In this document: piece after piece, positions 2,202 through 33,635 of the stretch
Position numbering within the stretch: position 1 is the first letter of the stretch
How the letters are laid out: every line of letters begins with the position of its first letter
DNA from: a virus
DNA: 33,635 nt
Reading direction: 5' to 3' (one strand)
Virus record (IMG/VR): IMGVR_UViG_3300022185_000201
Location: 1 to 33,635 of that record
The notes under the pieces: model-generated
Seen by the model: only the letters and a program-made list of their open reading frames with translations
Database searches by the model: none
What the model was told of the DNA's origin: nothing
Translations under genes and position numbers: made by a program

Positions 2202-3224
2202 CTATACTAATAACACGAATGAATGTAAATCTATTCGCTTATCAGTCGTATTTTTGAATAACACATAAACTTCAGTTATTGAAGTTGCAAATTGTACTTC
2301 GTTCTTTTTATCAAGAGGTCTTAAATCACTTGCTAAGTTTCCTATAGAAATAGTTAAACCACCAACATTAACTTCAGTTTTAATCCCCACGTATTTCGAC
2401 GCTGCTGGTAATAATAACTTAACAGTCCTAGCTTGACCACCACTAGGTATTGAGATAAAGTCAAAGCCTAAGTCAGCGTTGTAATTAGCTAGTTCATTAT
2501 CGAACACACCATCCATAGATTCAAACAATACCGCATCTACATAGAAAGTTCCGTATTTACATTGTTTTTCTTTGAAGGAAACAATATCATCATAATGGAA
2601 TAAACTTGGGTCATCTTCAAAAGTTATAGTTTTAAAAGCTTCCACTTCGGCAGTTGCTTTTTCTAAACCTTCTACATATAACTCATTATCAGAAGTAATT
2701 TCAATAGGTGGTTGTTCTACAAGAACATCAGATGGTACTGATTCAACTTTGTAGAACAACGGTTTTTCATCTTCATCTACTTTTTGTACTTCTACTTCTT
2801 CAGATGTATAACATTTGTTAAAGATACCAGTTCCGACTATTTCAGTTGTTTCTGGTTCTAATACTTCACCATCTTCATCTAATACAGGTGGTGTCACTAA
2901 TACACTAGTTAACTCATATTGTATTTGTTTACCATCTTTATCAAGCAAAGGTATTTTATTCAATACTTTGACTAAAACAGGCTCTTCAGTTACTTCAGTT
3001 GTTTCTACCTTAACATCATTATTTACTACTTCTATAATTGATTCTTGTGGTAATAGATAAAGAACATTGTTTTCTTCATCTAATTTACCCACAACATTTG
3101 TATAAGAATGCTGTTTTGTTAAATTAGCAATATCTACATTTAATACTTCAGATTCAAAAGGTAATTTCTGTCTACTATGACCAGTCGAATTTAAAGTTTC
3201 TTTATTAAATAGTACGTTTGTCAT
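2202..3224 (-). CDS. Unrecognised acidic protein after tail fibre
   Basis: 340 residues. I do not recognise the family. The first two thirds are very rich in Glu, Val, Asp and Thr with a repetitive, extended look (KVETTEVTEEPVLVKVLNKI). The last 85 residues look like a compact beta-rich domain (ISIPSGGQARTVKLLLPAAS to IDLHSFVLLV). A strong AGGAGGT precedes the ATG. Being next to the fibre it may be a fibre tip, accessory fibre or fibre-assembly factor (inference). No membrane segment or signal peptide is seen. Confidence 0.65.
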   Translation of the reverse strand: MTNVLFNKETLNSTGHSRQKLPFESEVLNVDIANLTKQHSYTNVVGKLDEENNVLYLLPQESIIEVVNNDVKVETTEVTEEPVLVKVLNKIPLLDKDGKQIQYELTSVLVTPPVLDEDGEVLEPETTEIVGTGIFNKCYTSEEVEVQKVDEDEKPLFYKVESVPSDVLVEQPPIEITSDNELYVEGLEKATAEVEAFKTITFEDDPSLFHYDDIVSFKEKQCKYGTFYVDAVLFESMDGVFDNELANYNADLGFDFISIPSGGQARTVKLLLPAASKYVGIKTEVNVGGLTISIGNLASDLRPLDKKNEVQFATSITEVYVLFKNTTDKRIDLHSFVLLV

Positions 3225-3275: not shown

Positions 3276-6200
3276 TTAAGTTGTGATTACTTTACCTTGG
3301 TCGTTTAGATACCCTTGAATCTCGCCATTAGGTGTTCTCCAAGCAGTAGGGAAAGGAATATAAGTCCTAGAATTACCTTCCTGTTCTTTGGATAGTATCT
3401 TACCTTCTATCGGAACTAATATAGATATACTATTCCCAGTGGAATTACCTATTTGGAAAGCACCTGCTGTTGAATAACTTGTAATAATAAGCATTTTTAA
3501 CTCACCATCTTGCAATACTAAGAACCTTACAATCCCCAACATAGGTTTTTTAATAGAGAGTATTGCATATTGTGTAGTGAAATAGTTGATAAGTCCACCT
3601 ACAGAGAACTGAACCTTTGTACCAACATTTATTCCTTTTGAATCAGCTGCAAATGGTGCATTACCAAAACCAATATCTCCAAAAACTGATAAAATATCAT
3701 TTGAAACTCTATACAATGGGTTCATGTAATGATGTATTCCTTGTTTATTCCCCACAGAAGATGATAAATCACTTAGTAATAGACCATCTGATTCAGCCAA
3801 TATTGTACCTAACATACTTGTAGATATCTTAGGTTCTTGAGGTAGATGTTTATAAAATAACTCAATCACATCTTCCCTACCTGTAGTAACCGATTTACGT
3901 GGATACTGGGTCTTGATTTCTTTAGTAACAGGTCGTACTTTGATAACGTTTTTCTTAACTTGGTCTACATAAGGTGCCAGTTCAACTTCTAAAGAAATAT
4001 AGTCTGTATAAATTTCAGAAGGTGAAGCTGCTCCCGCTGGGTATGTTGAGTGAACTAACATGTATACTTTCTGTTCCTTATTAATATAAGCAGAAGGTAT
4101 TCCACCTTCAGATATTGAAGCAGTTATTAGAGAAGGAACTGATGTAACGTTAGTTTGTGGACTAACCCATGCATTGGTAGTATTAACCCACCACTTAGTT
4201 GTTGCACCATTAGTTATAACTCCTGTATTATCACCAACACCATATCCAGTCCATTTAGCAGACATTTTCTTAATAGCAAGTTTTAATTCCACTAGAGATA
4301 ACCCTAAGTGAGATAAATCAAATTCAAATAGATGTTGAGAGTATGTCCCTTCTGTAGAACTAGTCCTAGGTCTTAACGCACCATCTAACTTATCTACATT
4401 TGTGTACCACGACTGTGGAGCATTAATATAATTTGCAGTCACCAATGGACTTTCAAAAGTAGCTCTACCTGCATACTTCATTACATGTGGATTCTCGAAA
4501 GAACTACCTTCAATCTTACCTTTTAAATCTAAGACTCTTCTGCGTTTAATAAATTTGTTGAATGGTACGAATGGTTTAATTACGTTACCAAGTGTAAGCA
4601 TTGGGTTTTTGAAATACACTTCTAGCAAGTTAGAAGAAGTTTTATCTAAACTAATCGCTATAGTAGTGTTTTGACCACTGTTAAACAATTTGGAACTAAC
4701 TAAACTAACAGAACCCAATGCTGATAATGTTGTCCCTGTTTGAACTCCAGTTATTAGTGAACGTCCAAGATTTGAATCAACATTAAATGCATAATTTGTA
4801 TTAGGAGAAACATTCAAATATATAGCTGAACCTGCACTACTACCCGCTGTGTTTTCCGGTATTTTCCATTCATAAGGACTAATTATCTGTGCTACTGTAG
4901 CCATTCCCCAACCTATATTTAAAGGTGTTATCATGTTTTCACCTTCAACAAACATTTCCGGTGAATCTACTAATAAAGGTTTAGTAATATCTGGAACAAA
5001 TGTATCATAACCTGTTTCTGCTACATTTATTAATATCTCTAATTCCATATAATCCGAATTAATTATAGAAGGTGTTGTTCCGTCTGATGGTTCTGCATAT
5101 GCAATGAAATATACAAAACCATTTGCATCAATTGCGTTAGCAGAACTCAAAGTTATAACTCTATTCAGAGAAGAAACAGTTGAATTACTATGAGATGTTG
5201 CACTTGTCCAAGCCAAACTAGTATGACTCCAAAAAGCAACAGTTGCTTTATTACCACCAACAGATGAGCCAAAACCACTCCAAATACCGTTGTAACTAGT
5301 TACATTATCTTTAATCCATTGAATCTTTTCTGCAAGAGTTAATTTAGGGATACGTCCATAACTACGTTCTACTGCTTCAATTATGTTGAATGAAAATAGT
5401 GATTGAGCGATACCACCAACAACAGAAGTTGAACGCACCCATAAAGAACCATCTAATTTACTTATTGTTGTAAATGTAACTTGTGATGGGTTAGTTTGGA
5501 TATTACTTGGTGTTTCCAAAATGATAGGGTCTGCTTTAAATTTTATTTCATGTGGGTTCTCAGATGTACTTAATACAATTTTTCCATCTAAGTTCTCAAC
5601 AAGTTTCAAAGTATTACTTTTCACATAATTCAATCCATTTACTTTTGCACCCAACACTTCACTAGGTAGATAACTCAAGCCTTTTCCTGCTGTATAATTA
5701 GTCGAATACTGTACTTGAATAACAGAAGTATTCGTAGTAGGTGCAGTCGTGATAGTGAAAGTAGCTTCCTTAGTCCCTAAATTAGTCCATGTACCTACTA
5801 ATCCATTTGCAGTTGTTACAGGTGAAGAAGTTGACGCAGTTGTTTCATACACTCTAGAACCTGCGTACAGATTTGAAAGTGACCCATTAATTGTAATAGT
5901 ATTATTAACTGAGTCTACAGATGTTACTATTTTATCTGAGTAAACCGTCCCTTCTGGTCTGATGAATGTAATAACATCATTAATCGCAATTCCAATTACT
6001 TTGTCTAACTTTATAAGCGTTCCACTTGTGATATCAATTGTTTCCAATGTAGTAGCTATTGCTGTATCAGCATCAATTACACCACTAACTACTCCTTCTA
6101 AAGATGAAACTTTGATTGTATCATTTACCGCCCACACCCCTGCAGTTGCTTGAGTTGTTTTAATATGTGGCAAGTGAGAGTTAGAAACTGGGTCAATAAA

Positions 6201-8480
6201 GTCTACATACGTTTCAGAAGTTTGAGCGTCAGAGAATGCTTGTCTACGAACATGGTTTACCGTGTCTTTTAATCTTGTTGGTGTTAATCCTTGTGCATAG
6301 TCATTTGGTAACAACCATCTTCCATAAGGGGTATATACTTCTGACAATGAATCCAAGTTTCTACCCATTACTACTGCCAAATCTTTATCATCTGATGTTG
6401 AATAAAATTTAACAAAATAACAATTACTAGGTGTAGTAAAAGATGTCCTTCCGTCAGAAAAATCAATTCTATTTTTGTTAATATCATAGAATAGAACCCA
6501 AAAAGCTGCCCCAGTGGTAAAGTTAACTAATTTTGTTTTGTATAATGTGCTAGGTGCTACCGCATTAAATTCTTTTGACCTCCTACCTGCAGTATCTACT
6601 GATGCACCACTACCAGAGTCATATCTCCCATATTCAATAGGAGAAGATACTATATTTTCACAAATGTTTTGATAAGAAGATACATAAGGGAACTTTTTAC
6701 CCAATTCTTCACCAGTATATAATGGGTCTACGTCAATCTTGTCGTAGGTTGCTTGGTCAATTTCATAAACTCTAATTTCATCAAATATAGAGTAAGAGTT
6801 AGCAACTGTTCCAGTATTATGTTTAAATCTAGGAATAAAAGTAGTCGCACCAATTAATTCTGAAGCACTTACTTTTGCATAAGATGGTGCATAGGTATTT
6901 GAAGTTATCTGTGTACCATGCTTAAACGTTGCCCCAAATTCAACATACACTGCCCCATATCCACCTGAATTAAACTTAACATCTGCTATTACTAGATAAT
7001 TTTTTGTTGTATTTATCTTACTTAGCAAGTTAGGAAAATACCCATAATAGTTTCCATTAGAGCCTGAACCTAATATTTTTATTCCTTTTCCATTCTTGCC
7101 GTCTGAATCAATAGTCATAGTCGCGTTTGTAGTAATATTAGCTATAGATTCGCAATTTCCATCAGAACCCAACAAATTTACTAAGTCACGCTCTACTCCA
7201 TCATTTCCTTTTACTTTTGTTGGTATAAGTTGTAACATAGTATCCTTAGGGGCTTCCATTAGACCAAAGCGTTCTTTTGCCATAACAGGTTTATCAGATG
7301 ATAACTCACCACGCATAAACTTATCAAAGTTCTCAGCAAGAAGTTTGTTGTAATTATAACCTGTTAAGGAAACTTTATGTCTAAGGTCGATGATATCATC
7401 TTTGTCTATGATGTTAGCAAATTTCAAGTCTGGTCTACGTGCTTTAATATAATAAGTATTGGTTGTACCATTACCTGCATATAATCCAATAGTAGTTATA
7501 TATAAATCTAAACCACCAAGTGCATTACCATCCTTAGAAACAACTTTACTTGTATCAGTACTTCCTACTGATATAGTATCTCCAACAATTATATTATCAT
7601 ATAAAATGGAATCTATTTTTACTTGTTGTAATACCCCCACTTTTGAATTTCCTACATTTGTATAATTTACCATTCCTGATACATAATTATCTGCACCATT
7701 TAAGTTATCCTCACGATAACCGCCTGAGTTCCTACGTTTAACTCTGAATAATGGAATAGCATAAACATATCCATCAGCAGTTTTGAGAGTGTCTTTAGAT
7801 AATTGATTACCATTTCCTGCGATGTATAACCCTACATCATTTTGTTCAATATAAGATGATGTGCTGCGTTGTTTATAATTCTGAAAAACAGTTAAATAAT
7901 TTTGTACCGTTCCGATATTAGGGTTATTTAACCCACCTTGTGGTGCAACTTGTAGATTCATATTTCCTGCATTAACTATATTATTATCCTTTGTGAATCC
8001 ATCTAGAGGATAACTTGTAAAGTCTACTCCCTCAACTACACGAATCCTCCAAGACATCTTTTCAGAATCATCTTGTGGAAACCAAGTTTCTAAGAAAATT
8101 AGGTCATCCCTAGTTCCAAATGTAGGTGGTTGAGTTAAATCTATATAATTAAGCTCATTAACATTCGCATATATCCATTTATCAATAAATAACTTGTTGC
8201 CGTTTATTATTGCATTAAACGAACGAACTCCAAATCTATTAGCGTAATAATTCCCTGACAAAAGACCTGCTTGTAATTGACCTCTGCCTCCACTAGTTCC
8301 TGAAATAGCACTACCAATAGAATTATCTAATCCCAATAATCCACTGTGTATACTATCACGTAATATATCAGAAACACGAAGTTGTGTATCATCCAATACT
8401 TGTAAAGCTGTATTTAATTTCCTAGCACCTACTTCTAAACTATCAGGTGCTAGTGGGTCTAATATAATCTTTTTTAACAT
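3276..8480 (-). CDS. Large tail fibre or receptor-binding protein
   Basis: 1734 residues, rich in Thr, Ser, Asn and Gly with strand-like segments, as in tail fibres. The N-terminal 300 residues (LEVGARKLNTALQVLDDTQL, later YVYAIPLFRVKRRNSGGYRE) match baseplate-attached fibres of large Bacillus-type phages. The middle contains carbohydrate-binding-like modules. A domain of about 180 residues occurs twice (around 4995-5585 and 3955-4500), each ending in a DY-LE strand. The last 200 residues form a separate C-terminal domain, probably contacting the receptor. GGGTGA precedes the ATG. No intramolecular chaperone or hydrolase motif was recognised. Confidence 0.85.
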   Translation of the reverse strand: MLKKIILDPLAPDSLEVGARKLNTALQVLDDTQLRVSDILRDSIHSGLLGLDNSIGSAISGTSGGRGQLQAGLLSGNYYANRFGVRSFNAIINGNKLFIDKWIYANVNELNYIDLTQPPTFGTRDDLIFLETWFPQDDSEKMSWRIRVVEGVDFTSYPLDGFTKDNNIVNAGNMNLQVAPQGGLNNPNIGTVQNYLTVFQNYKQRSTSSYIEQNDVGLYIAGNGNQLSKDTLKTADGYVYAIPLFRVKRRNSGGYREDNLNGADNYVSGMVNYTNVGNSKVGVLQQVKIDSILYDNIIVGDTISVGSTDTSKVVSKDGNALGGLDLYITTIGLYAGNGTTNTYYIKARRPDLKFANIIDKDDIIDLRHKVSLTGYNYNKLLAENFDKFMRGELSSDKPVMAKERFGLMEAPKDTMLQLIPTKVKGNDGVERDLVNLLGSDGNCESIANITTNATMTIDSDGKNGKGIKILGSGSNGNYYGYFPNLLSKINTTKNYLVIADVKFNSGGYGAVYVEFGATFKHGTQITSNTYAPSYAKVSASELIGATTFIPRFKHNTGTVANSYSIFDEIRVYEIDQATYDKIDVDPLYTGEELGKKFPYVSSYQNICENIVSSPIEYGRYDSGSGASVDTAGRRSKEFNAVAPSTLYKTKLVNFTTGAAFWVLFYDINKNRIDFSDGRTSFTTPSNCYFVKFYSTSDDKDLAVVMGRNLDSLSEVYTPYGRWLLPNDYAQGLTPTRLKDTVNHVRRQAFSDAQTSETYVDFIDPVSNSHLPHIKTTQATAGVWAVNDTIKVSSLEGVVSGVIDADTAIATTLETIDITSGTLIKLDKVIGIAINDVITFIRPEGTVYSDKIVTSVDSVNNTITINGSLSNLYAGSRVYETTASTSSPVTTANGLVGTWTNLGTKEATFTITTAPTTNTSVIQVQYSTNYTAGKGLSYLPSEVLGAKVNGLNYVKSNTLKLVENLDGKIVLSTSENPHEIKFKADPIILETPSNIQTNPSQVTFTTISKLDGSLWVRSTSVVGGIAQSLFSFNIIEAVERSYGRIPKLTLAEKIQWIKDNVTSYNGIWSGFGSSVGGNKATVAFWSHTSLAWTSATSHSNSTVSSLNRVITLSSANAIDANGFVYFIAYAEPSDGTTPSIINSDYMELEILINVAETGYDTFVPDITKPLLVDSPEMFVEGENMITPLNIGWGMATVAQIISPYEWKIPENTAGSSAGSAIYLNVSPNTNYAFNVDSNLGRSLITGVQTGTTLSALGSVSLVSSKLFNSGQNTTIAISLDKTSSNLLEVYFKNPMLTLGNVIKPFVPFNKFIKRRRVLDLKGKIEGSSFENPHVMKYAGRATFESPLVTANYINAPQSWYTNVDKLDGALRPRTSSTEGTYSQHLFEFDLSHLGLSLVELKLAIKKMSAKWTGYGVGDNTGVITNGATTKWWVNTTNAWVSPQTNVTSVPSLITASISEGGIPSAYINKEQKVYMLVHSTYPAGAASPSEIYTDYISLEVELAPYVDQVKKNVIKVRPVTKEIKTQYPRKSVTTGREDVIELFYKHLPQEPKISTSMLGTILAESDGLLLSDLSSSVGNKQGIHHYMNPLYRVSNDILSVFGDIGFGNAPFAADSKGINVGTKVQFSVGGLINYFTTQYAILSIKKPMLGIVRFLVLQDGELKMLIITSYSTAGAFQIGNSTGNSISILVPIEGKILSKEQEGNSRTYIPFPTAWRTPNGEIQGYLNDQGKVITT

Positions 8481-12941: not shown

Positions 12942-13589
12942 TTAAGGCAACTTCAGCTTCTGATTAGGGTATATGGTATACGGTGATTTAATACCATTTA
13001 AGCTTGCAATCTTCTTATACATCATATAATCTTTGTATATCGCAACTGCAATCTCAGTTAAACAGTCTTTACTTTTAACATTGTAAGTTTTTGGCGTCAC
13101 TTTAGGATTAGGTCTAGAATTAGATTTAGGTGGAGTTGCTTTCTTTTTCTTTATCGTTATTTTCTTGGCTTTTAAAAACCTATATTCAGATAAGATTATA
13201 TCGAAGTAGATAGTTCCTACATCGCCACCTTTTTCATAGAAGTTGAAATCTTCTATAGATACTGCAACATTTATAGGTGTACCAGTAACAATAAATCGAG
13301 ATGGCATATCCTTACTTTTAAACTCTTGAATCTTTTTAACATAACTCCAAGGTTGAGATAATTTAGACGGTGAAACACCACAATAAGGTCCATGTTCCTT
13401 TGGAAAGAAACCTGCAAACTTGTAAACGTTCAATATACCTTTTTGTATAACAGTCGCCTCACCCAACCTATGAACCATATACGATTGGTTTTTTGTACCA
13501 TTAGATACATCAAGCTGAGAAGGGTTCACAGGAAACATAAACCTCTCATTGTTGTTGTCATGGGTAAGCCAAAGTTCTATCTTACTCAT
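12942..13589 (-). CDS. LysM tail protein, XkdP-like
   Basis: 215 residues from ATG 13589, which overlaps the tape-measure stop as ATGAGTAA and has GGAGGAGAGG shortly upstream. Residues 1-145 form the usual XkdP N-terminal part (MFPVNPSQLDVSNGTKNQ, then GDVGTIYFDIILSEYRFLK). A Lys/Pro-rich linker follows. The last 48 residues are a LysM domain (TYNVKSKDCLTEIAVAIY to IYPNQKLKLP). It joins tube and baseplate hub, and LysM may touch peptidoglycan or act only as a structural module, as in gp53-like proteins. Confidence 0.88.
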   Translation of the reverse strand: MSKIELWLTHDNNNERFMFPVNPSQLDVSNGTKNQSYMVHRLGEATVIQKGILNVYKFAGFFPKEHGPYCGVSPSKLSQPWSYVKKIQEFKSKDMPSRFIVTGTPINVAVSIEDFNFYEKGGDVGTIYFDIILSEYRFLKAKKITIKKKKATPPKSNSRPNPKVTPKTYNVKSKDCLTEIAVAIYKDYMMYKKIASLNGIKSPYTIYPNQKLKLP

Positions 13590-16500
13590 GTACACCCTCT
13601 CCTCCACCTATAATTTCAGCTTCTAACATTTGTCTTAATTTATCAATAAATCTATCTTCATCAGCTTCGTTATGGATATGAACTTCGCCAACCAATTTAT
13701 CAATTTTTGTCATAGTAGTTGCAACAGTTTTAGTTGCATCAGATTTAGAGGACATACTTCTAATAATATTATCATTATTATCCTTAGGAGTACGAACATC
13801 AGATGGACTACCTGTTACTCCACCATTAGCATATTGTTTGATTTTTGAATTATCATTAAATACACCTAAGATTCGACCAGTTTTTCTCCATAGACTTAAA
13901 GCAACAGATTTTCTTGACTCACTTAAAGGAATAATAGCTTCAGCACCTGCTTCGCCTGCAATACCACGTCCACCATCAACTAAATGAGGTCTATTGATAA
14001 TACCACTACCTGCGAATCCGTTTCTATCAGCCATCCCAACAATACCACCATTAGCATATTGGTCTTTTGCACCACCACGACCATCGCTTCTACCTTGATT
14101 AAACGCGTCACCGATATTTCTACCTAAACTTACAACTGCATTCATACCTCCAGTAGCTTTATCCAATGCCCATTTAAGTGCACCACCGATAGAACCAACT
14201 ACTGAATTCCAACCACTCTTAATACCATTGACAATAGATGTACCTATACTCATTGCTGCACTAAAAGCAGATGAAGCTGCACTATAAAGTTTACCTGGAA
14301 TACCACCAATCATTTCACCTAGAGCAGAAGTTATATCATTAAAGGATTGTACTGCACCTTCTTTTATTGAAGTCCAATAACCTTGAATTTTACCTGGAAG
14401 TGAAGAGAACCAAGCTGCAATCTTATCTGGAACTCCGCCAACCCATTCAACTAACTCATCGAATTTAGCAATGGCTTTTGTTTTAGTATCAGAGAACCAA
14501 ACTGCAATCTTATCACCCATAGTAGAAAACCAAGCTGCAACTCTATCTGGAACTCCTTGAACCCATTCGACTAATTCATCAAATTTCCCTTTAGCCTTAG
14601 TTTTCACATCATCGAACCAAACCGCAATCTTATCACCTTGAGTAGCAAACCAAGCTGCAATCCTATCTGGAACACCTTGAACCCACGTTACAAGCTCATC
14701 GAATTTCAGAATAGCTTTATCCTTAGTATCAGTGAACCATACACCAATCTTATCACCAATACCTGAGAACCATGCAACCAATTTATCTGGTACACCTTGA
14801 ACCCATGTAACTAGTTCATCAAATTTAAGGATAGCTTTATCTTTGGTATCTGTGAACCAAACACCGATTTTATCGCCAATGCCTGAGAACCATGCCACTA
14901 ATTTATCTGGAACTCCTTGGACATAAGTAACAAGTTCATCAAATTTAGTTTCAGCCCAACCTACTGCATAACCTATCCAATAAGCAATCTTTTCTGGTAA
15001 TTCAGCAAAGAAGGTATCAATTTTCTCTGGTATTTCACTAAAGAACTTCAATACTTTATCTTTAGTTTCCATTACCTTATTAACAATACCATCTTTAACT
15101 TCGTTGAATTTATTTACTGCACCATCTTTGATTTCAGTAAACTTGTTAACTATACCATCTTTTATTTCAGTGAATTTATTAATTGCTTTATCTTTCAGCT
15201 CATTAAACTTGTCAGTAACTTTTCCTTTAATCTCACTACTTTTATCGGAAATCTTACCACCCATATCACTGAACCAGTCGCTAGTTTTATCCCAAGCTTC
15301 TTTTGATTTATCAGCAATATATTTATAAGCATCAGATGCACCATTTTTAGTCTTTTCCCAATTAGTTTCTGGAGAAACACTTTTCGTAACCTTTTCAGCA
15401 CCATTACCTTGGGAACTAGCACTCACTTTATCTTCCTGTTTATTACCAGTGAAGAAACCTTTTATGCTTTCCCACTTATCACCAATGGCTTCTCCGCCTT
15501 TAGAACCTGCCATTGAACCTGCGATACCACCACCGATTCCTCCTAGTGCACCGCCAATTGCTGTACCTATACCTGGAAGAATCATAGTACCAATCGCTGC
15601 ACCACCCATAGCTCCAAGTTTACCACCTGCAAGACCACCTGCTAATGCACCACCAACTCGACCAGTTGTTTTTTGTCGTTCTTTACCTGCTTCAGCAGTA
15701 GCAATTTGATGTGCTCCAATACCTATAGCTACTGGCATTGCTAATTTCTTAGTTACACTTATCAATCCTTTTCCTACAGTTGTAGCACCTTTTCCTAAAC
15801 TAGTTAATCCGTTACCAATCTTTTCATTCATTGGTACTTTAGGAATATAACGTGTTGTTTTTGGAACTGGTGTTGGTTTAACTATAGGAGTTGGAACTGG
15901 TTTAACGGGTCCTGCAGTTCTATAACCATTAAACGCAGAACTAATTCTACCTTTACCGTCATTACGATTACCTCTATAAGCAGTGTAGGCTTCTTTTACA
16001 TTAGTGTTACGAACAGTATTTGCAATGTTCTTAGTAGTTTGTATTGGGCTATAGATAGCTTTTGCTGTCGCTGCAGTCCCATGTGCCACTGCTTTAGTCC
16101 CATCGACAACTTTCTTACCAGTGCCCACAACAGTATCTACACCTGCTTTTGTATTCTTAACACCTTTAACTATTACATTTGTTAATGCACCAGTCGCCAT
16201 CATTAATGCAACACCTGCTAGAATATCAGCTGCAATAGCTGTACCTATTTTAGATGCATCGCCTGAAGCAAACGCTTCTTTATTAAAGTCGAATAAATCT
16301 TTTAATCCTTCTTTTAATGCACTTGCCATACCTTTAACAATCATAACTCCAATATCAACACCAAACTCAAAAGCTGATTGGAAGTCGAAATCGTTAAAGA
16401 AGTCAGATAATAGCTCACCCATCTTTTTAGCAACTTCTTCTAATGATTTACTAGCACCTGCATAATCTCCATTAACAATCTTAGCAAAAGCTTCGAATAA

Positions 16501-18636: not shown

Positions 18637-18788
18637 CTATTTAGGTGGTGGATTATCCTCAATATATTTATCTATAGATGCATATATGAAGGCTTTGCGG
18701 TATACGTCCATTTCCCACAAATCATGTGGAAGTATCTTTAAGTTGTGGAGAGCATAGTGGGAGTAGCCTGCGTCACCGTCTCCGCTTT
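18637..18788 (-). CDS. Frameshift extension of tail chaperone (gpG-T type)
   Basis: The -1 frame relative to the chaperone is open from about 18815 to the TAG at 18639-18637 and encodes SGDGDAGYSHYALHNLKILP then LWEMDVYRKAFIYASIDKYI, the style of T-type extensions (AFIxASI helix) in Firmicute phages and in the place of PBSX xkzB. It has no start codon with a ribosome site before its conserved part. A slip at A-AAA-G (AAA codon 18788-18786) would join 150 chaperone residues to 49 extension residues. The heptamer there (ATTAAAA) is not a canonical slippery site; an upstream A-AAG (18801-18798) is another choice. The stop overlaps the tape-measure ribosome site. Confidence 0.72.
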
Positions 18789-19235
18789 TAATGAGGGCTT
18801 TGCGTCTTCTACCAACTCATTAAAGTCCTCATCATAACCGTTGATACGTTGAACTGCATTTAACCACTCAGCATATTCTCCACCAATACTCAATACTTCT
18901 TTAGCAAGGTCAACTGGGTCAACCAAATTATATGATTGTAATATAGCTGGGTCTTTAAAATCTGGATAAAGAGTAGACTCAATACCTAGACGTGCTGCAA
19001 AACGTTGAGCATCTAGTTTTTCATCGACCTTTTTCCCTTTTTTATAGACAGGCTTTGTACATTCATCTTGTAATAGGTCAATTAGGGTAGTATCAATAGG
19101 TTTGATTACGAAAGGAATTGGATTACCCTTTTCATCAAGGTAGCGAGTTGTTACAATTACATCTTCTTCCTTAGTAACTTTTGCTTTACCCTTCATAAAA
19201 AATTGCATATTACGTTCTTTATTTGTGTTTGTCAT
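18738..19235 (-). CDS. Tail assembly chaperone, XkdN-like (short form)
   Basis: 165 residues. This is the G-type chaperone that binds the tape measure before the tube is built. The pattern fits XkdN: FMKGKAKVTKEEDVIVTTRYLDEKGNPIPF near the start, LQSYNLVDPVDLAKEVLSIGGEYAEW in the middle and INGYDEDFNELVEDAK near the end. The ATG at 19235 has GGAGG 8 bases before it; the ATG at 19250 lies inside that site and is rejected. A -1 frame extension follows (separate entry). It is the first gene after the terminator and promoter-like pair. Confidence 0.88.
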   Translation of the reverse strand: MTNTNKERNMQFFMKGKAKVTKEEDVIVTTRYLDEKGNPIPFVIKPIDTTLIDLLQDECTKPVYKKGKKVDEKLDAQRFAARLGIESTLYPDFKDPAILQSYNLVDPVDLAKEVLSIGGEYAEWLNAVQRINGYDEDFNELVEDAKPSLKAETVTQATPTMLSTT

Positions 19236-19262
19236 TTCAATTTCCTCCATATCAGTAAGTTT

Positions 19263-25590: not shown

Positions 25591-27435
25591 TTAGTATCCT
25601 AATGAAGCTGCTGCTTCTTCAGAAGACATTTCATCAAATGTTTTTGCTTTAGATTCTTTATCAACTTTAGAAGTTGACAAGTTGTTACCGAAGTTTACAA
25701 TCGCAGACATTTCACCTGCAAGAGTTGCGTTAGTAGTAAGTTTGCCAAAACGCTCACCATGTTTAGTAATACGTTCAGCCATACGTGCTTCTAAAACAGC
25801 AATTGACTTAGCTTCAAAGTCATCAGCTAAAGTAGCTGGGTCAGCAGTTAAGATTGCTTCGAAATCATCATTTAGATATTCTAATACGATTTCATTATCA
25901 ACATCAGCAGTTAGTTCAGCAAATTTTGCTTTAACATTATCTAAGATTGACTTGTTAATAGTAACTAGCTCAGCATTAACTAAGTTCGTTACTTTCTCAA
26001 CGACAGGAGTTTCAGCATCACCGAATTTAGCAACTGCATTAGATACCGCTTCTACTTCGCCTTCAGCTTTTAGTTTAGCATCAACGATTAATTGTGCTTC
26101 AGCTAATACATCATTAAGAGCTGGCGGTGCTTCCTCAGCAACTGCTGATTCACCTGCATATTTAACCATACCTAATGTTTTTGCTAATTGAACAGTGAAT
26201 GTTTTAAAATCTTGTGCAGATTTAACTCCCATACCACTCATAGCTGACATTTCACCTGCTAGAGATTTAACTGTTTTATCATCTTCTACAAGATTTAATT
26301 CATCTTGCATAGCTTTAAATAAACCTGGATTGTGTAACTTAATATCATTTAACGTGCTTTTAGCTAATACACCTGAAATATCCATCTCGCCTGCGTCCTC
26401 CTCTTCATCCTTTTCAGAACAATTTTTACATCCTGCTTTTTTACATTGTGCTTTGGTTTTATGCTTAGAGCATTTCCAACCTTTTTCGCCTTCACCTGCT
26501 AAATCTTCTTTAATTTCATAAGACACTTCTTGTTCACCTGCCTCTCCGCTTTCTACAAAGTTAACGACACGTCTTACTGGGACAAGTCCACTTGTAAAGA
26601 TAACCGTATCATTTTCTATTTTGTAGTCAGCTTTTGCATAACCATGCGGAACATCGCTACCTTCTATTTCTAAAACTACATAATTTTCATACACGTCTTG
26701 AACGTAATGATATGAACCTTCAGAGTTAAAGTTAGCTCGTGCTGCACTCCTAACAAACTCGATTAACTGACCATAACTACCTTCCATTTCAAAGGCTTCT
26801 TTCCATTTGTCTTGTAAGGTCATAACAACTCCACCTTCTGTAATTTCATTCATCTCACCTGCTAACTTAACAATATAAGCTGGCAGTCCTTCACCAAGTT
26901 TCCTTGAAAGGTCGATTGATTTTAGGTCAACTTCTAATATATCTTGAACGTCACCGCTCATTATATATCTTACTTTGCCCCAAACTGAAATACTATCGAT
27001 GGCTTTGGACTTAATCCAAACTTTAGCTTTATCAGCTGTTGGTAAGACGTATCCTTTTAACCACACTCTGATTTGCCCACCATCTAACACTTCAGACTTA
27101 GAGCCGAACCAAACAATCTGTGGGTCTGGCAATACGAAACCAACTTCATCTGGTTTGATATGTCCCAAATGACCAACTGGTAATTTTTCAAGGACTTGAA
27201 CACCAATAGATAAAACTACCTCTGGCTTCCAGTTTCGATTGTTAGCAGAAACACCTGACACTGTATACGCATAGATAAACTTATCATCTGATGTATCATT
27301 CTTAGTGATTAAATCATAATCAAAGTTTTGTCCAACTTCGAAATCTGTTGGTACTTCTAACGTAGCATCATGCATCTCACCTACAATATTAAAACTGAGG
27401 TTCATATCCTCCGTTACCTGTTTCGGCTTACCCAC
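25591..27435 (-). CDS. Prohead protease fused to scaffold, XkdF-like
   Basis: 614 residues from the GTG at 27435, which has GGAGGT 6 bases upstream. Residues about 40-160 fit the herpesvirus/HK97-type prohead protease fold: HLGH at 89-92, a VWLKGYVLP strand at 124-132 and DSISVWG at 147-153, giving a candidate His and Ser. Residues about 205-295 form a second small domain often seen in XkdF-like proteins. A Cys-rich segment (Cys322, His325, Cys331, Cys336, Cys339) follows. The rest, to the end, is acidic, Ala/Glu-rich and helical like a scaffold. Seven Ala-Gly-Glu tripeptides (first residues 192, 299, 313, 348, 393, 427, 573), three inside LAGEM, lie between or at domain borders and are candidate self-cleavage sites. 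The place between MuF and capsid genes fits. Confidence 0.82.
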   Translation of the reverse strand: MGKPKQVTEDMNLSFNIVGEMHDATLEVPTDFEVGQNFDYDLITKNDTSDDKFIYAYTVSGVSANNRNWKPEVVLSIGVQVLEKLPVGHLGHIKPDEVGFVLPDPQIVWFGSKSEVLDGGQIRVWLKGYVLPTADKAKVWIKSKAIDSISVWGKVRYIMSGDVQDILEVDLKSIDLSRKLGEGLPAYIVKLAGEMNEITEGGVVMTLQDKWKEAFEMEGSYGQLIEFVRSAARANFNSEGSYHYVQDVYENYVVLEIEGSDVPHGYAKADYKIENDTVIFTSGLVPVRRVVNFVESGEAGEQEVSYEIKEDLAGEGEKGWKCSKHKTKAQCKKAGCKNCSEKDEEEDAGEMDISGVLAKSTLNDIKLHNPGLFKAMQDELNLVEDDKTVKSLAGEMSAMSGMGVKSAQDFKTFTVQLAKTLGMVKYAGESAVAEEAPPALNDVLAEAQLIVDAKLKAEGEVEAVSNAVAKFGDAETPVVEKVTNLVNAELVTINKSILDNVKAKFAELTADVDNEIVLEYLNDDFEAILTADPATLADDFEAKSIAVLEARMAERITKHGERFGKLTTNATLAGEMSAIVNFGNNLSTSKVDKESKAKTFDEMSSEEAAASLGY

Positions 27436-27455
27436 TTTCTCACCTCCCCTCAAGG

Positions 27456-29756: not shown

Positions 29757-31397
29757 TTATTTTTTCATCTCACCTAACAAAGCTATTAATTGATTAACCA
29801 TGTTATCAGATACCATCATTTCACCAACATCTACACCATCTTCATCGTCTATAAGAACCGAATTTGGATTGATACCAACTTTAGATGCTATTTCATCTAC
29901 CATAGCTTGAGTTTCAGCCTGAGAACCAACTTTACCTGCAAATTGTGCTTTAGCTCGTTTTAACTCACCATCGCCATCGCCTACTACTTTCAACAAACGC
30001 ATATACGTCTCATCAGTTAATAGACCTGCATCCCTAGCCATTTTCAATCGTACATCAAGCGACATATCTTCATCGGGTAATACTTCGCCCCATTTGATTG
30101 TAGAAATAATATCATCAATATTAATATCTTTATTATAGAAAGCTGATATTTGTGCGATAGTATCATTAGTTTTAACGAAAGAGTCATGTACGTCTAAACG
30201 TTTACTTTGTATCCGTTGTACTAGAGGACTCGACTGCATTTTTACACTAGCATAAGTTGAACTCATACTAACTCCAAGTGTCCACTCGGGAACACCTGAC
30301 ATTTGAACGAATATATAGAAGATGAGTTCCAATAACGCTTTCGCATTACTTACTGTATCATTTACCTGGAGGTAACTTACTTTTGCACCTCCCTTTAAAT
30401 AATATCCACCCATCATGTTATATATACCTTCATTAACTGTTCCACCTGAAGGGTCAACTTGCCCATACATTTCAGCAATGAAATTATTAGGGTCATCCAA
30501 TCCACTAAATACAATAGTCGGTTGACCATTATACATGTTAGCATCGATTGCACGTTCTAAGATTTGATGATAAACACCTGATAATTTAATCAATCCATTC
30601 GCATCAGCAAAACCATTTATATCACCTATTAGTCGTCCTTGATTAAATTCAACTATAGGCATCACACCCCATGGATTAGTCATTTGTGCTTTATGAATAG
30701 TTTCTTTATCATCTTCTATTCGCAACACCTTGACAAAGTGTTTAAACTCATCAATATTAGAAGCGTCTTTCTTCTTAGTAAGAGCATCTTCAAATTCTTG
30801 GTTATTTTCCTTCCAATATATCTTATCGAAGTATACATGATTTTTATCATATTTACTTTCATCGGATTCACGTGCATTAGTGTCTTTTACTTCGAACTTC
30901 TCCACTATAGTACGAACCCTTGCATAAGTTATATCATCGGGGTCACTCCAATTCTCCCTACGCACTTCTAAAATAGATTGCTTAGTATGAGGATGAAAAG
31001 TAACAAGTTTCTTTCGCTGATTATAACCTAACTCTAAATAAGACTGACCATATAATCCTAAGTACTTCAATGTATCGTATATTTTAGATTTGTTTTGTTC
31101 ATATGTGAAGTCCAACAATTTATCTAATTCACGATTACCTTTAGCCTCTGGGTCGGGCAACCCCATGTAATGTAATAAGTTATCAGTTACTGCTTTTATT
31201 ATCCATCCACCTAGGAAATAGTCTGGGTTCTCACCACGATATAGTTTGTTAATAAACTCAATATCAGTTTCATCTTCGTTTATTAGCTGAGATAAGTCGA
31301 GTGCTTTATTACCACCACTCATTGTGCGTTCCAAACTTAAACCTGCGGAAGTCATAAAGCCAGTTCCAATCATATCGTAATCGCTTGCGTATGCCAT
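29757..31397 (-). CDS. Portal protein, SPP1 gp6-like
   Basis: Forms the ring at the head vertex through which DNA is packaged and to which the connector binds. At 546 residues the length and the pattern (an N-terminal IIKAVTDNLLHYMGLP region, a central GLYGQSYLELGY strand region and a long helical C-terminal part) fit SPP1/Mu-type portals, as does its place directly after the terminase. AAGGAGGTG lies about 6 bases before the ATG. The last residues are LLGEMKK and another VGEM lies about 20 residues before. These resemble the repeated AGEM sites in the protease-scaffold and may be processing sites (inference). Confidence 0.9.
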   Translation of the reverse strand: MAYASDYDMIGTGFMTSAGLSLERTMSGGNKALDLSQLINEDETDIEFINKLYRGENPDYFLGGWIIKAVTDNLLHYMGLPDPEAKGNRELDKLLDFTYEQNKSKIYDTLKYLGLYGQSYLELGYNQRKKLVTFHPHTKQSILEVRRENWSDPDDITYARVRTIVEKFEVKDTNARESDESKYDKNHVYFDKIYWKENNQEFEDALTKKKDASNIDEFKHFVKVLRIEDDKETIHKAQMTNPWGVMPIVEFNQGRLIGDINGFADANGLIKLSGVYHQILERAIDANMYNGQPTIVFSGLDDPNNFIAEMYGQVDPSGGTVNEGIYNMMGGYYLKGGAKVSYLQVNDTVSNAKALLELIFYIFVQMSGVPEWTLGVSMSSTYASVKMQSSPLVQRIQSKRLDVHDSFVKTNDTIAQISAFYNKDINIDDIISTIKWGEVLPDEDMSLDVRLKMARDAGLLTDETYMRLLKVVGDGDGELKRAKAQFAGKVGSQAETQAMVDEIASKVGINPNSVLIDDEDGVDVGEMMVSDNMVNQLIALLGEMKK

Positions 31398-31409
31398 TTA
31401 TTCACCTCC

Positions 31410-33299
31410 TTACTTGCGTAGACTATTTGGTAATGTTTTTGGTATTTTACCCAATCCACCTTGTCGAGTGTTAGCTGGCTCACCGACACGTCTAGCATAA
31501 CCTTGTCTACCTGACCAATGAGGGTTATTTTTCATACCGACTGATGCAACTGCACCTGTACCTACTTCAGCTGTCATAATCATACGAGCAACTTTTCGAT
31601 ATAAGTTTGCGTGTGCTAGATGGTCATGACCTGTCCTAATAAAGTATTCTTTGCGTTCACCAGTATCATCATTTTCTTCAGTTTCCTTTTTAAGAGCAAT
31701 ATGGTGTGAATTAAATCGTTCCATAATGTCGAAACCTGAAGGTGTAATAAGTTTATTGGTTACTATGTCATTGAATAAACCTTTAAACATTTCTGTTCGG
31801 TCTATATTAGCCATACCTTCATCAAGTCGATAACTCATATCCCCATCACGTGTAGCAGTGTAGAAAGCCATACATACTCTACCTGGATATTTATTCTTAA
31901 ACCATCGTGCCGAGTTTTTATTTGGGTTTCCATCTATAACCGCATATTGTATGTTATATCTGTCCCATAGCTCGGGTAGACGTTGGAAAGGGTCTTCATC
32001 ATCATAATCTTGGGAGTCAATTGATTCCACATAGATTATCTTTTCCTTAGAAGGGTCAATTTCATCTGGGACACTTATTGTTACCCATAATATATCACCT
32101 TGGTCAATTCCCATTACCGCTTGGTGTTCCTTTTTAGCAGAACCCCACATTTGATAAGGTCGTTGTATACCACGCATTATCTCTAACGTTAAAGCTGTAG
32201 ACTTCTCACTATAGGATTCACCTAAGTCGAAGTTGTAAAAGTCAGAGATACGTCTATAACCATTTTTGGAATCTACCAACTCATTAGCAGTGAAACGTGG
32301 GTTCATCATTTTACTTATATGGTATCCACGAACACCTGTATTAGATGGTGATGAAGCAATCCATATACCATTACGAATTGTATCGGGCTCTATAAGAGAT
32401 TGACACCCATGACACTGGTAAATATATCCCTTACCAAATGCCAACTCCTTAACATGCCTATCGAATTCCATTTTGAATTGTGCGTTACACTTAGGACATT
32501 TCACATGCCACATTTGCATATCCGATTTTTGGAACATAGTCGATACACCATAACCTGGAATAGTTGGTGTACTAAAGTTATACTCCCATTTCATATCGGA
32601 TGCACCAAGACGTGATTTGAATTTGTTCAATACGTTTTGATTTGAGAAGTTTACCTCATCATGTATATTCCAGTCACTATCCACCGAGATGGCAGAACCA
32701 TCACCGAACGTCCCTTTATAATATATGAAGAAGTCATTTATACGTCGCATAGATGCATTATTCACATATAGCATTGACTGGATATATGTTTTAGGATTAT
32801 CAACCATCTTCATATTCCAATAAGGGTCATCAGGTGTACAGTCGATAGAACCTTCTATTATTTGTGGTAAACGTGAAGCTGCATACTGCAACATGTCTTT
32901 AAAGGTTGGGAATGTATATATTGCTTTTCCCATATTATAATCACCGAACCAAAATAACTTGGTCAGCATTATTTCAGATATACCCATTTGGGCTGATTTT
33001 TCTATAACCTGCTTAGGGTGTAAGTCATCTAATATTTGCCTTTGATATGGGAAGTTATGATAAGTCATTGGCTTTCCTTTGAATAGCCTATACTTCAATG
33101 CCCAATCGGATGGCTTTAATATTTCCCTATCAGTATTATCTCTTAACCCCTCTAAACGAAACTCATCACTGTCGACCTCGTTAGGATTTTGTATAATGTG
33201 AGCCAAGTAAGAACTCATATCGATAGCCGACTTTAGATGGTCTTCTTTATTAGGAGTCAAACCTGGTATTAACAGTTGCGATAACAAGTCAATATCCAA
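31410..33299 (-). CDS. terL: Terminase large subunit, GpA-like
   Basis: ATPase and nuclease subunit that drives DNA into the prohead and cuts it. In 629-residue numbering, a Walker A-like segment KSAQMGISE lies at 101-109 and an acidic pair DE near 214-215 fits Walker B. A four-cysteine zinc-finger (Cys 268, 271, 296, 299) is of the kind seen in GpA-type terminases. Acidic residues at 399 (GIDQGD) and 456 (VIDGNP) fit the nuclease domain. I prefer the TTG start at 33299 because GGAGGT stands 7 bases upstream; the in-frame ATG at 33314 overlaps that ribosome site and has none of its own. The stop overlaps the portal ribosome site. No small terminase subunit is visible in the window. Confidence 0.93.
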   Translation of the reverse strand: MDIDLLSQLLIPGLTPNKEDHLKSAIDMSSYLAHIIQNPNEVDSDEFRLEGLRDNTDREILKPSDWALKYRLFKGKPMTYHNFPYQRQILDDLHPKQVIEKSAQMGISEIMLTKLFWFGDYNMGKAIYTFPTFKDMLQYAASRLPQIIEGSIDCTPDDPYWNMKMVDNPKTYIQSMLYVNNASMRRINDFFIYYKGTFGDGSAISVDSDWNIHDEVNFSNQNVLNKFKSRLGASDMKWEYNFSTPTIPGYGVSTMFQKSDMQMWHVKCPKCNAQFKMEFDRHVKELAFGKGYIYQCHGCQSLIEPDTIRNGIWIASSPSNTGVRGYHISKMMNPRFTANELVDSKNGYRRISDFYNFDLGESYSEKSTALTLEIMRGIQRPYQMWGSAKKEHQAVMGIDQGDILWVTISVPDEIDPSKEKIIYVESIDSQDYDDEDPFQRLPELWDRYNIQYAVIDGNPNKNSARWFKNKYPGRVCMAFYTATRDGDMSYRLDEGMANIDRTEMFKGLFNDIVTNKLITPSGFDIMERFNSHHIALKKETEENDDTGERKEYFIRTGHDHLAHANLYRKVARMIMTAEVGTGAVASVGMKNNPHWSGRQGYARRVGEPANTRQGGLGKIPKTLPNSLRK

Positions 33300-33349
33300 T
33301 ACTTTGACCTCCATTCGTTACTTATTATCGGCTTACCTCAGTAATTGGT

Positions 33350-33567
33350 TGATAGTATAGATATATTATAGTTCATATCACATCGTGTTTATTATCAAGC
33401 AACGTCACATTAATGCATAACGTTTATCTATACTATCAGTAGGAGTAATAAAGCAGATATACTTCATCGAAACCGATTTTGCATCTACCATAGAAGGTGA
33501 CTCATGTGACTTATCAATCCACAAGTCTTATTATTACTCCTACTCATAGTACATATGCCATCAGTAG
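33350..33567 (-). other. Structured non-coding element upstream of terminase
   Basis: This stretch has no gene but is rich in pairing. Two perfect 14-bp inverted repeats are present: 33438-33451 pairs with 33531-33544, and 33350-33363 pairs with 33425-33438, so the two helices meet at 33438. Inside the first are smaller stems 33508-33512/33523-33527, 33453-33458/33483-33488 (one G-U pair) and 33466-33469/33474-33477. Inside the second is 33401-33405/33420-33424. An imperfect hairpin at 33540-33567 would compete with the first long helix. Read on the minus strand, this would be a compact multi-helix RNA just before the terminase. It could instead be a DNA-level site such as operators or a packaging site. 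The pairing is seen directly; the role is unknown. Confidence 0.6.
33365..33370 (-). promoter_or_regulatory. Candidate -10 box before terminase
   Basis: A TATAAT hexamer on the minus strand sits in the context ACTATAATA. No good -35 hexamer is found 16-18 bases upstream. Transcription from it would start near 33358, inside one arm of the 14-bp inverted repeat, about 60 bases before the terminase start. The same nine bases ACTATAATA occur before the tail chaperone gene, which supports a phage late-promoter motif, although AT-rich DNA gives such matches by chance. Confidence 0.3.
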
Positions 33568-33583
33568 AGTTAACAAACGTGGC

Positions 33584-33621
33584 TAGAGCGTCCTCTATAC
33601 CATAGAGTGATAATAATCACT
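33584..33621. repeat. Cluster of short hairpins at right edge
   Basis: Three short inverted repeats follow one another: 33584-33588 with 33593-33597 (5 bp, 4-base loop), 33593-33598 with 33602-33607 (6 bp, 3-base loop, sharing bases with the first), and 33606-33611 with 33616-33621 (6 bp, 4-base loop). None is followed by a U-tract on the minus strand, so they do not look like simple terminators. They continue the paired character of the adjoining element. No open reading frame of useful length covers them. Confidence 0.4.
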
Positions 33622-33635
33622 TCATATAGCTACCA

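Follow-up and report, generated by a model that had tools for sequence, protein, structure and literature searches.

A candidate structured leader RNA upstream of the terminase large subunit gene in a contractile-tailed phage record

The region upstream of the terminase large subunit gene (terL) in the virus record IMGVR_UViG_3300022185_000201 contains a real and unusual fold that most likely belongs to RNA of the terL leader. We tentatively read this element as a structured leader at the 5′ end of the terL mRNA, restricted to the lineage of this phage. The fold evidence comes from a single sequence, and a homologous element was found nowhere in the sets searched. The record comprises 33,635 bases, is linear and complete as deposited, and probably represents a genome fragment; its whole length was analysed and is called the window below.

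Genomic context and the terL start

The record carries a phage structural module of the contractile-tailed type, and its evident genes are located on the minus strand. These include terL, the portal gene, head morphogenesis and major-head-like genes, and genes for the tail sheath, tape measure and baseplate. The tail genes are of the PBSX type known from Firmicutes phages (XkdN, YqbQ-like, BW3TFN), and the tail sheath matches that of a Bacillus pumilus phage at 44%. Strong GGAGG-like Shine–Dalgarno sites precede most genes of the record. The PBSX-type tail, the distantly SPO1-like TerL and these Shine–Dalgarno sites together suggest that the host belongs to the Firmicutes and that the genome is mosaic; the stretch 8506–33314 combines PBSX/Firmicutes-type tail genes with the SPO1-type TerL in one mosaic module. 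The coding fraction of the annotated part is about 98%. In four ORFs (31410–33314, 18738–19250, 25591–27453 and 12942–13607), a GGAGG-like site falls a short way within the ORF as called from its first start, and the true starts of these genes are therefore probably situated downstream.

The gene next to the element, taken for a terminase in the initial annotation, indeed encodes a true large subunit (Table 1). At about 25%, TerL is similar to terminases of the SPO1 type, among others, the Kayvirus TerL being a distant relative. The longest terL ORF starts at ATG 33314, which has no Shine–Dalgarno sequence in place, while a GGAGG motif is found at a proper position 8 nt upstream of TTG 33299; hence, the latter is the probable start codon. 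As a counterpoint, ATG 33314 matches the terL start of the nearest TerL relative (L153) in length, which leaves some doubt about TTG 33299.

The gap before terL is the largest of the record, the next largest being 121 nt, and no ORF longer than 39 aa is present in 33300–33635. A pattern scan of 31300–33635 yielded no terminator-like sites, which suggests that the leader would be transcribed jointly with terL. Promoter-like sites occurred no more frequently than in shuffled sequences, with none above chance.

Inverted repeats, folding and strand preference

As the initial annotation had described, two perfect 14-bp inverted repeats (33350–33363/33425–33438 and 33438–33451/33531–33544) are present and meet at base 33438; this base is common to both. 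The annotation's rough estimate that such a pair is very unlikely to arise by chance is borne out by dinucleotide shuffles of the whole window, where 14-bp seed matches with a spacing of up to 120 nt averaged 0.06 against the two observed. At a spacing of up to 120 nt, the 33.6-kb window has just a single further inverted pair with an exact match of 12 bp (2711/2749). That repeat, spanning 2711–2760, lies inside ORF 2202–3224, and adjacent windows have z-scores of −4.6 to −4.9. In the minimum-energy fold of the element, base 33438 is assigned to the 33438–33451/33531–33544 pair, giving helices of 14 and 13 bp, designated P1 and P2, which abut with zero unpaired bases between them. The features of the region are listed in Table 1.

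Table 1. Features of the region upstream of terL, with positions given in the window
Feature	Coordinates	Strand	Description
terL	31410–33299	−	phrog_675, 1.7e-98; Pfam GpA_ATPase; from the probable start TTG 33299
Shine–Dalgarno GGAGG	33308–33312	−	8 nt ahead of TTG 33299
Non-coding region upstream of terL	33300–33635	−	At least 336 nt; reaches the record end and may be cut off
S1	33554–33577	−	Imperfect copy of S3 (18/24); direct repeat
S2	33531–33556	−	Complementary to S3 (26 nt, 88%), weakly to S1
S3	33425–33452	−	Central strand common to P1 and P2
S4	33350–33363	−	Complementary to the outer half of S3
Helix P1, 5′ arm	33531–33544	−	Minimum-energy fold, inverted-repeat search
Helix P1, 3′ arm	33438–33451	−	14 bp, perfect; minimum-energy fold, inverted-repeat search
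Hairpin P1a	33499–33527	−	Inside P1, with G-U pairs; minimum-energy fold
Hairpin P1b	33452–33489	−	Inside P1; minimum-energy fold
Helix P2, 5′ arm	33425–33437	−	13 bp; 14 counting base 33438
Helix P2, 3′ arm	33351–33363	−	Inverted repeat and fold
P2 interior	33364–33424	−	Irregular stem; z = −0.6, chance level
Closing helix P0, 5′ strand	33571–33579	−	Predicted; pairs with 33312–33320 at the terL start

The minus strand of 33340–33570 folds with an energy of −67.7 kcal/mol, well below its dinucleotide shuffles (z = −6.1, with none of 200 shuffles as good); the plus strand of the same interval gives −52.3 kcal/mol (z = −3.6). A sliding scan of 1118 windows on both strands ranked 33416–33635 of the minus strand as the most extreme (z = −6.7), although with 24 shuffles per window the ranks are rough, and rescoring with 200 shuffles gave z = −5.3. 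Other windows come close. The second strongest fold (z = −6.6, 24 shuffles) belongs to 6721–6940 of the plus strand, so the top rank is suggestive and falls short of proof. This second window is antisense to ORF 3276–8480 (1734 aa), and its signal may reflect repeated coding sequence. A strong fold signal (z = −5.5) was also found at 30241–30460 of the minus strand, in the portal ORF.

Inverted repeats fold on either strand, and the choice between RNA and DNA thus turns on other, strand-specific features. The excess of minus-strand over plus-strand stability is −15.4 kcal/mol, compared with a shuffle mean of −5.9 kcal/mol, and was reached by 0.7% of the shuffles. The five smaller stems proposed initially within the two repeats fared unequally. 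The 79 bases enclosed by P1 (33452–33530) fold better than shuffles on the minus strand (z = −2.8, shuffle fraction 0.008) and at chance level on the plus strand (shuffle fraction 0.22), whereas the 61 bases enclosed by P2 are unremarkable on both strands. The strand asymmetry and the minus-only significance of the P1 interior favour, with moderate strength, an RNA read in the terL sense over a strand-neutral DNA site. The proposal of a structured minus-strand RNA before terL is thus backed by the fold energy, the strand asymmetry and the position in the largest non-coding gap.

Regulatory or packaging sites ahead of terminase genes are common in phages, and the same repeats could be inverted copies of a 24–27 bp unit bound by the terminase small subunit, as a pac/cos site, or by a regulator of the late operon. 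The position upstream of terL suits such a DNA site, as does the alternating orientation of the repeat units (at 33350, 33425, 33531 and 33554); the strand-asymmetric folding, with interior hairpins significant on the minus strand only, and the arm spacing of 61 and 79 nt, unusual for a dimer operator, make it unlikely. Of the readings offered in the initial annotation, the structured RNA in the terL sense therefore agrees with the data, nothing specific was found for a packaging RNA, and the pac/cos site fits the strand bias more poorly.

Search for relatives and known RNA types

Related phages were searched for a counterpart of the element. A scan of IMG/VR with the single TerL protein returned no relative, and alignment-based scans, one of whose queries included a made-up consensus-like variant of a TerL segment to loosen the pattern, returned one relative at 45% identity (L153) and many at about 23–34%. 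Four relatives (23–27%) came from a scan of genome contigs. Tail-sheath relatives are present in IMG/VR at up to 62%, and none of them showed a match to the TerL of the record. In L153, the leader position is occupied by a 210-aa gene, which ends 33 nt before terL and has weak matches to phage families including a DNA repair protein; no such element is present there. In the other relatives, this position is mostly coding.

Several of these regions were considered as possible counterparts and rejected. In about 15 relatives (about 30% identity), an apparent gap of 300–700 nt before terL contains an ORF overlapping the terL start. Of the terL-upstream regions of about 50 relatives, one gave a z-score similar to that of the element, namely the 300 nt before terL in L045 (z = −5.2), but the region is coding; the unusually strong fold of this coding stretch (3533–3952) is an observation in its own right. 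A long sparse region (4636–5535) lies upstream of terL in the relative L235, a virus contig. It contains repeats resembling TATGATAT and a small ORF of regulator-like character, and looks like a regulatory switch region. The presence of this ORF and the lack of a match to the covariance model R1 speak against a counterpart of the element. R1 was built from the window sequence alone, entered twice, and is weak for distant homologues; it matched only the window itself and nothing in the L153 record or L235. Exact DNA patterns derived from the helices or a hairpin gave no match in IMG/VR, or one match in seemingly unrelated coding sequence. The blastn comparison of the leader with phage and plasmid records gave no useful match, only matches at E = 4. 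Thus, the search upstream of terL proposed with the initial annotation revealed no homologous element in the relatives examined. This result covers the records that remained in the search sets, which may omit those very near the window, and as far as seen the element appears to be lineage-specific.

Such a distribution is also what a recent or decaying insertion would give, such as a small mobile element that carries inverted repeats and has no present function. The element is missing from the nearest TerL relative, where the gap is 33 nt, it has no homologue in the databases searched, and S1 repeats S3 imperfectly. The perfect 14-bp arms, however, look undecayed, there is no second copy in the window or, by exact patterns, in IMG/VR, and the direct repeats include no obvious target-site duplication. 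We regard a functionless relic as improbable.

The initial annotation did not recognise a tRNA, a group I intron or a known pRNA, and the database scans agree with it. No Rfam 15 family reached the gathering score in the window, the only matches up to the cut-off of E = 10 being at chance level (E 0.6–7), and ARAGORN detected no tRNA or tmRNA there. The pRNA of phage phi29 is a small structured phage RNA tied to DNA packaging and is similar in size to the element. A phi29-type packaging RNA was rejected as unsupported: the scan of all Rfam families gave no match, and the neighbouring protein is a TerL with matches to phrog_675 and GpA_ATPase and not a gp16-type ATPase. The neighbour here is of the SPO1 type, and a role in the motor is unsupported.

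More generally, the element may be a free-standing small RNA of about 200–300 nt with its own transcription or processing that works in trans or serves as a scaffold, perhaps in packaging with a pRNA-like role. Its compact two-domain fold (z = −6.1) and the non-coding region adjoining a packaging gene are consistent with that. Pattern scans, on the other side, gave neither a terminator-like site nor a promoter above chance, Rfam had no match, and we know of no RNA cofactor for a TerL of the SPO1 type. An independent small RNA is accordingly rather unlikely.

ROOL and GOLLD are structured phage RNAs whose function is undefined, as is the case here. Members of GOLLD are often longer than 800 nt, and ROOL and GOLLD RNAs alike are often found near tRNA islands (PMC12286853); assignment of the element to either was rejected, with no Rfam match and no tRNA in the window. 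Non-coding RNAs of phage K (Kayvirus) were detected by RNA-seq (PMC9241854). Like the element, they are intergenic and have no assigned family, but they occupy other positions and no sequence link to them was found.

Possible strand exchange and control of terL

The four related segments S1–S4 allow competing pairings, namely S1:S2, S2:S3 and S3:S4. The complementarity of S3 to S2 extends over most of S3 and includes mismatches; that to S4 covers half of it. The likeness of S1 to S3, noticed post hoc, was reached by 2 of 1000 shuffles. In computed folds of the growing transcript, S1:S2 forms first and is replaced by a long S2:S3 helix, which gives way to P1 and P2 once S4 has been made; the crossover to P1 and P2 falls at about 33355–33340. 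In the predicted final fold, the closing helix P0 extends as far as the first Shine–Dalgarno base of the GGAGG motif. The pairing probability of P0 varies from 0.27 to 1.0 with the length folded and is 0.27 in the longest transcript, and the predicted exposure of the Shine–Dalgarno sequence changes with transcript length as well.

Tested singly against shuffles, most of these alternatives are not significant. S1:S2 is reached by 5–7% of shuffles, the outer half of S2:S3 by 18% and the extended S2:S3 helix by 8.6%; the duplex energy of P0, reached by 18%, is in the chance range. With most alternative pairings at 5–18%, the switch is unsupported on its own, and strand exchange among S1–S4 is put forward here as a hypothesis only.

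Attenuators of the trp type are mRNA leaders with mutually exclusive hairpins. The element resembles them in having segments able to pair 1:2, 2:3 and 3:4 directly before a gene. The mutually exclusive hairpins are predicted here, mostly at the shuffle fractions given above, and the element differs further in that it lacks both an intrinsic terminator and any convincing leader peptide. An attenuator dependent on an intrinsic terminator was rejected, with zero terminator-like sites in 31300–33635. An element of this kind would therefore have to act on translation.

Besides the helices, the fold energy, the strand preference and the large gap, the strong GGAGG at the edge of the predicted P0, the stepwise refolding of growing transcripts and the likeness of S1 to S3 count in favour of the structured terL leader that we tentatively prefer; the coding gene at this position in the TerL relative of 45% identity counts against it. 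For such a leader, a speculative course of events may be outlined. During transcription, the pairing may shift from S1:S2 to S2:S3 and then to S3:S4, and the final fold would free the 5′ segment to pair with the terL start in P0, up to the first Shine–Dalgarno base. P0 might then delay or lower terL translation; alternatively, translation may be opened by a change of the fold caused by a ligand, by a protein or by the ribosome. That the element founds a new class of leader RNA in phages, with this three-step cascade ending at the terL start and timing TerL synthesis, is quite improbable; if true, the cascade would link the supply of the packaging motor to transcription or to a ligand.

For now, the element is an orphan: its fold is strong, any function is putative, and it is useful mainly as a well-defined target. 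To our knowledge, RNA-level control of the packaging motor has no known case in SPO1-type phages, and it is such control that the leader would represent if it does govern terL.
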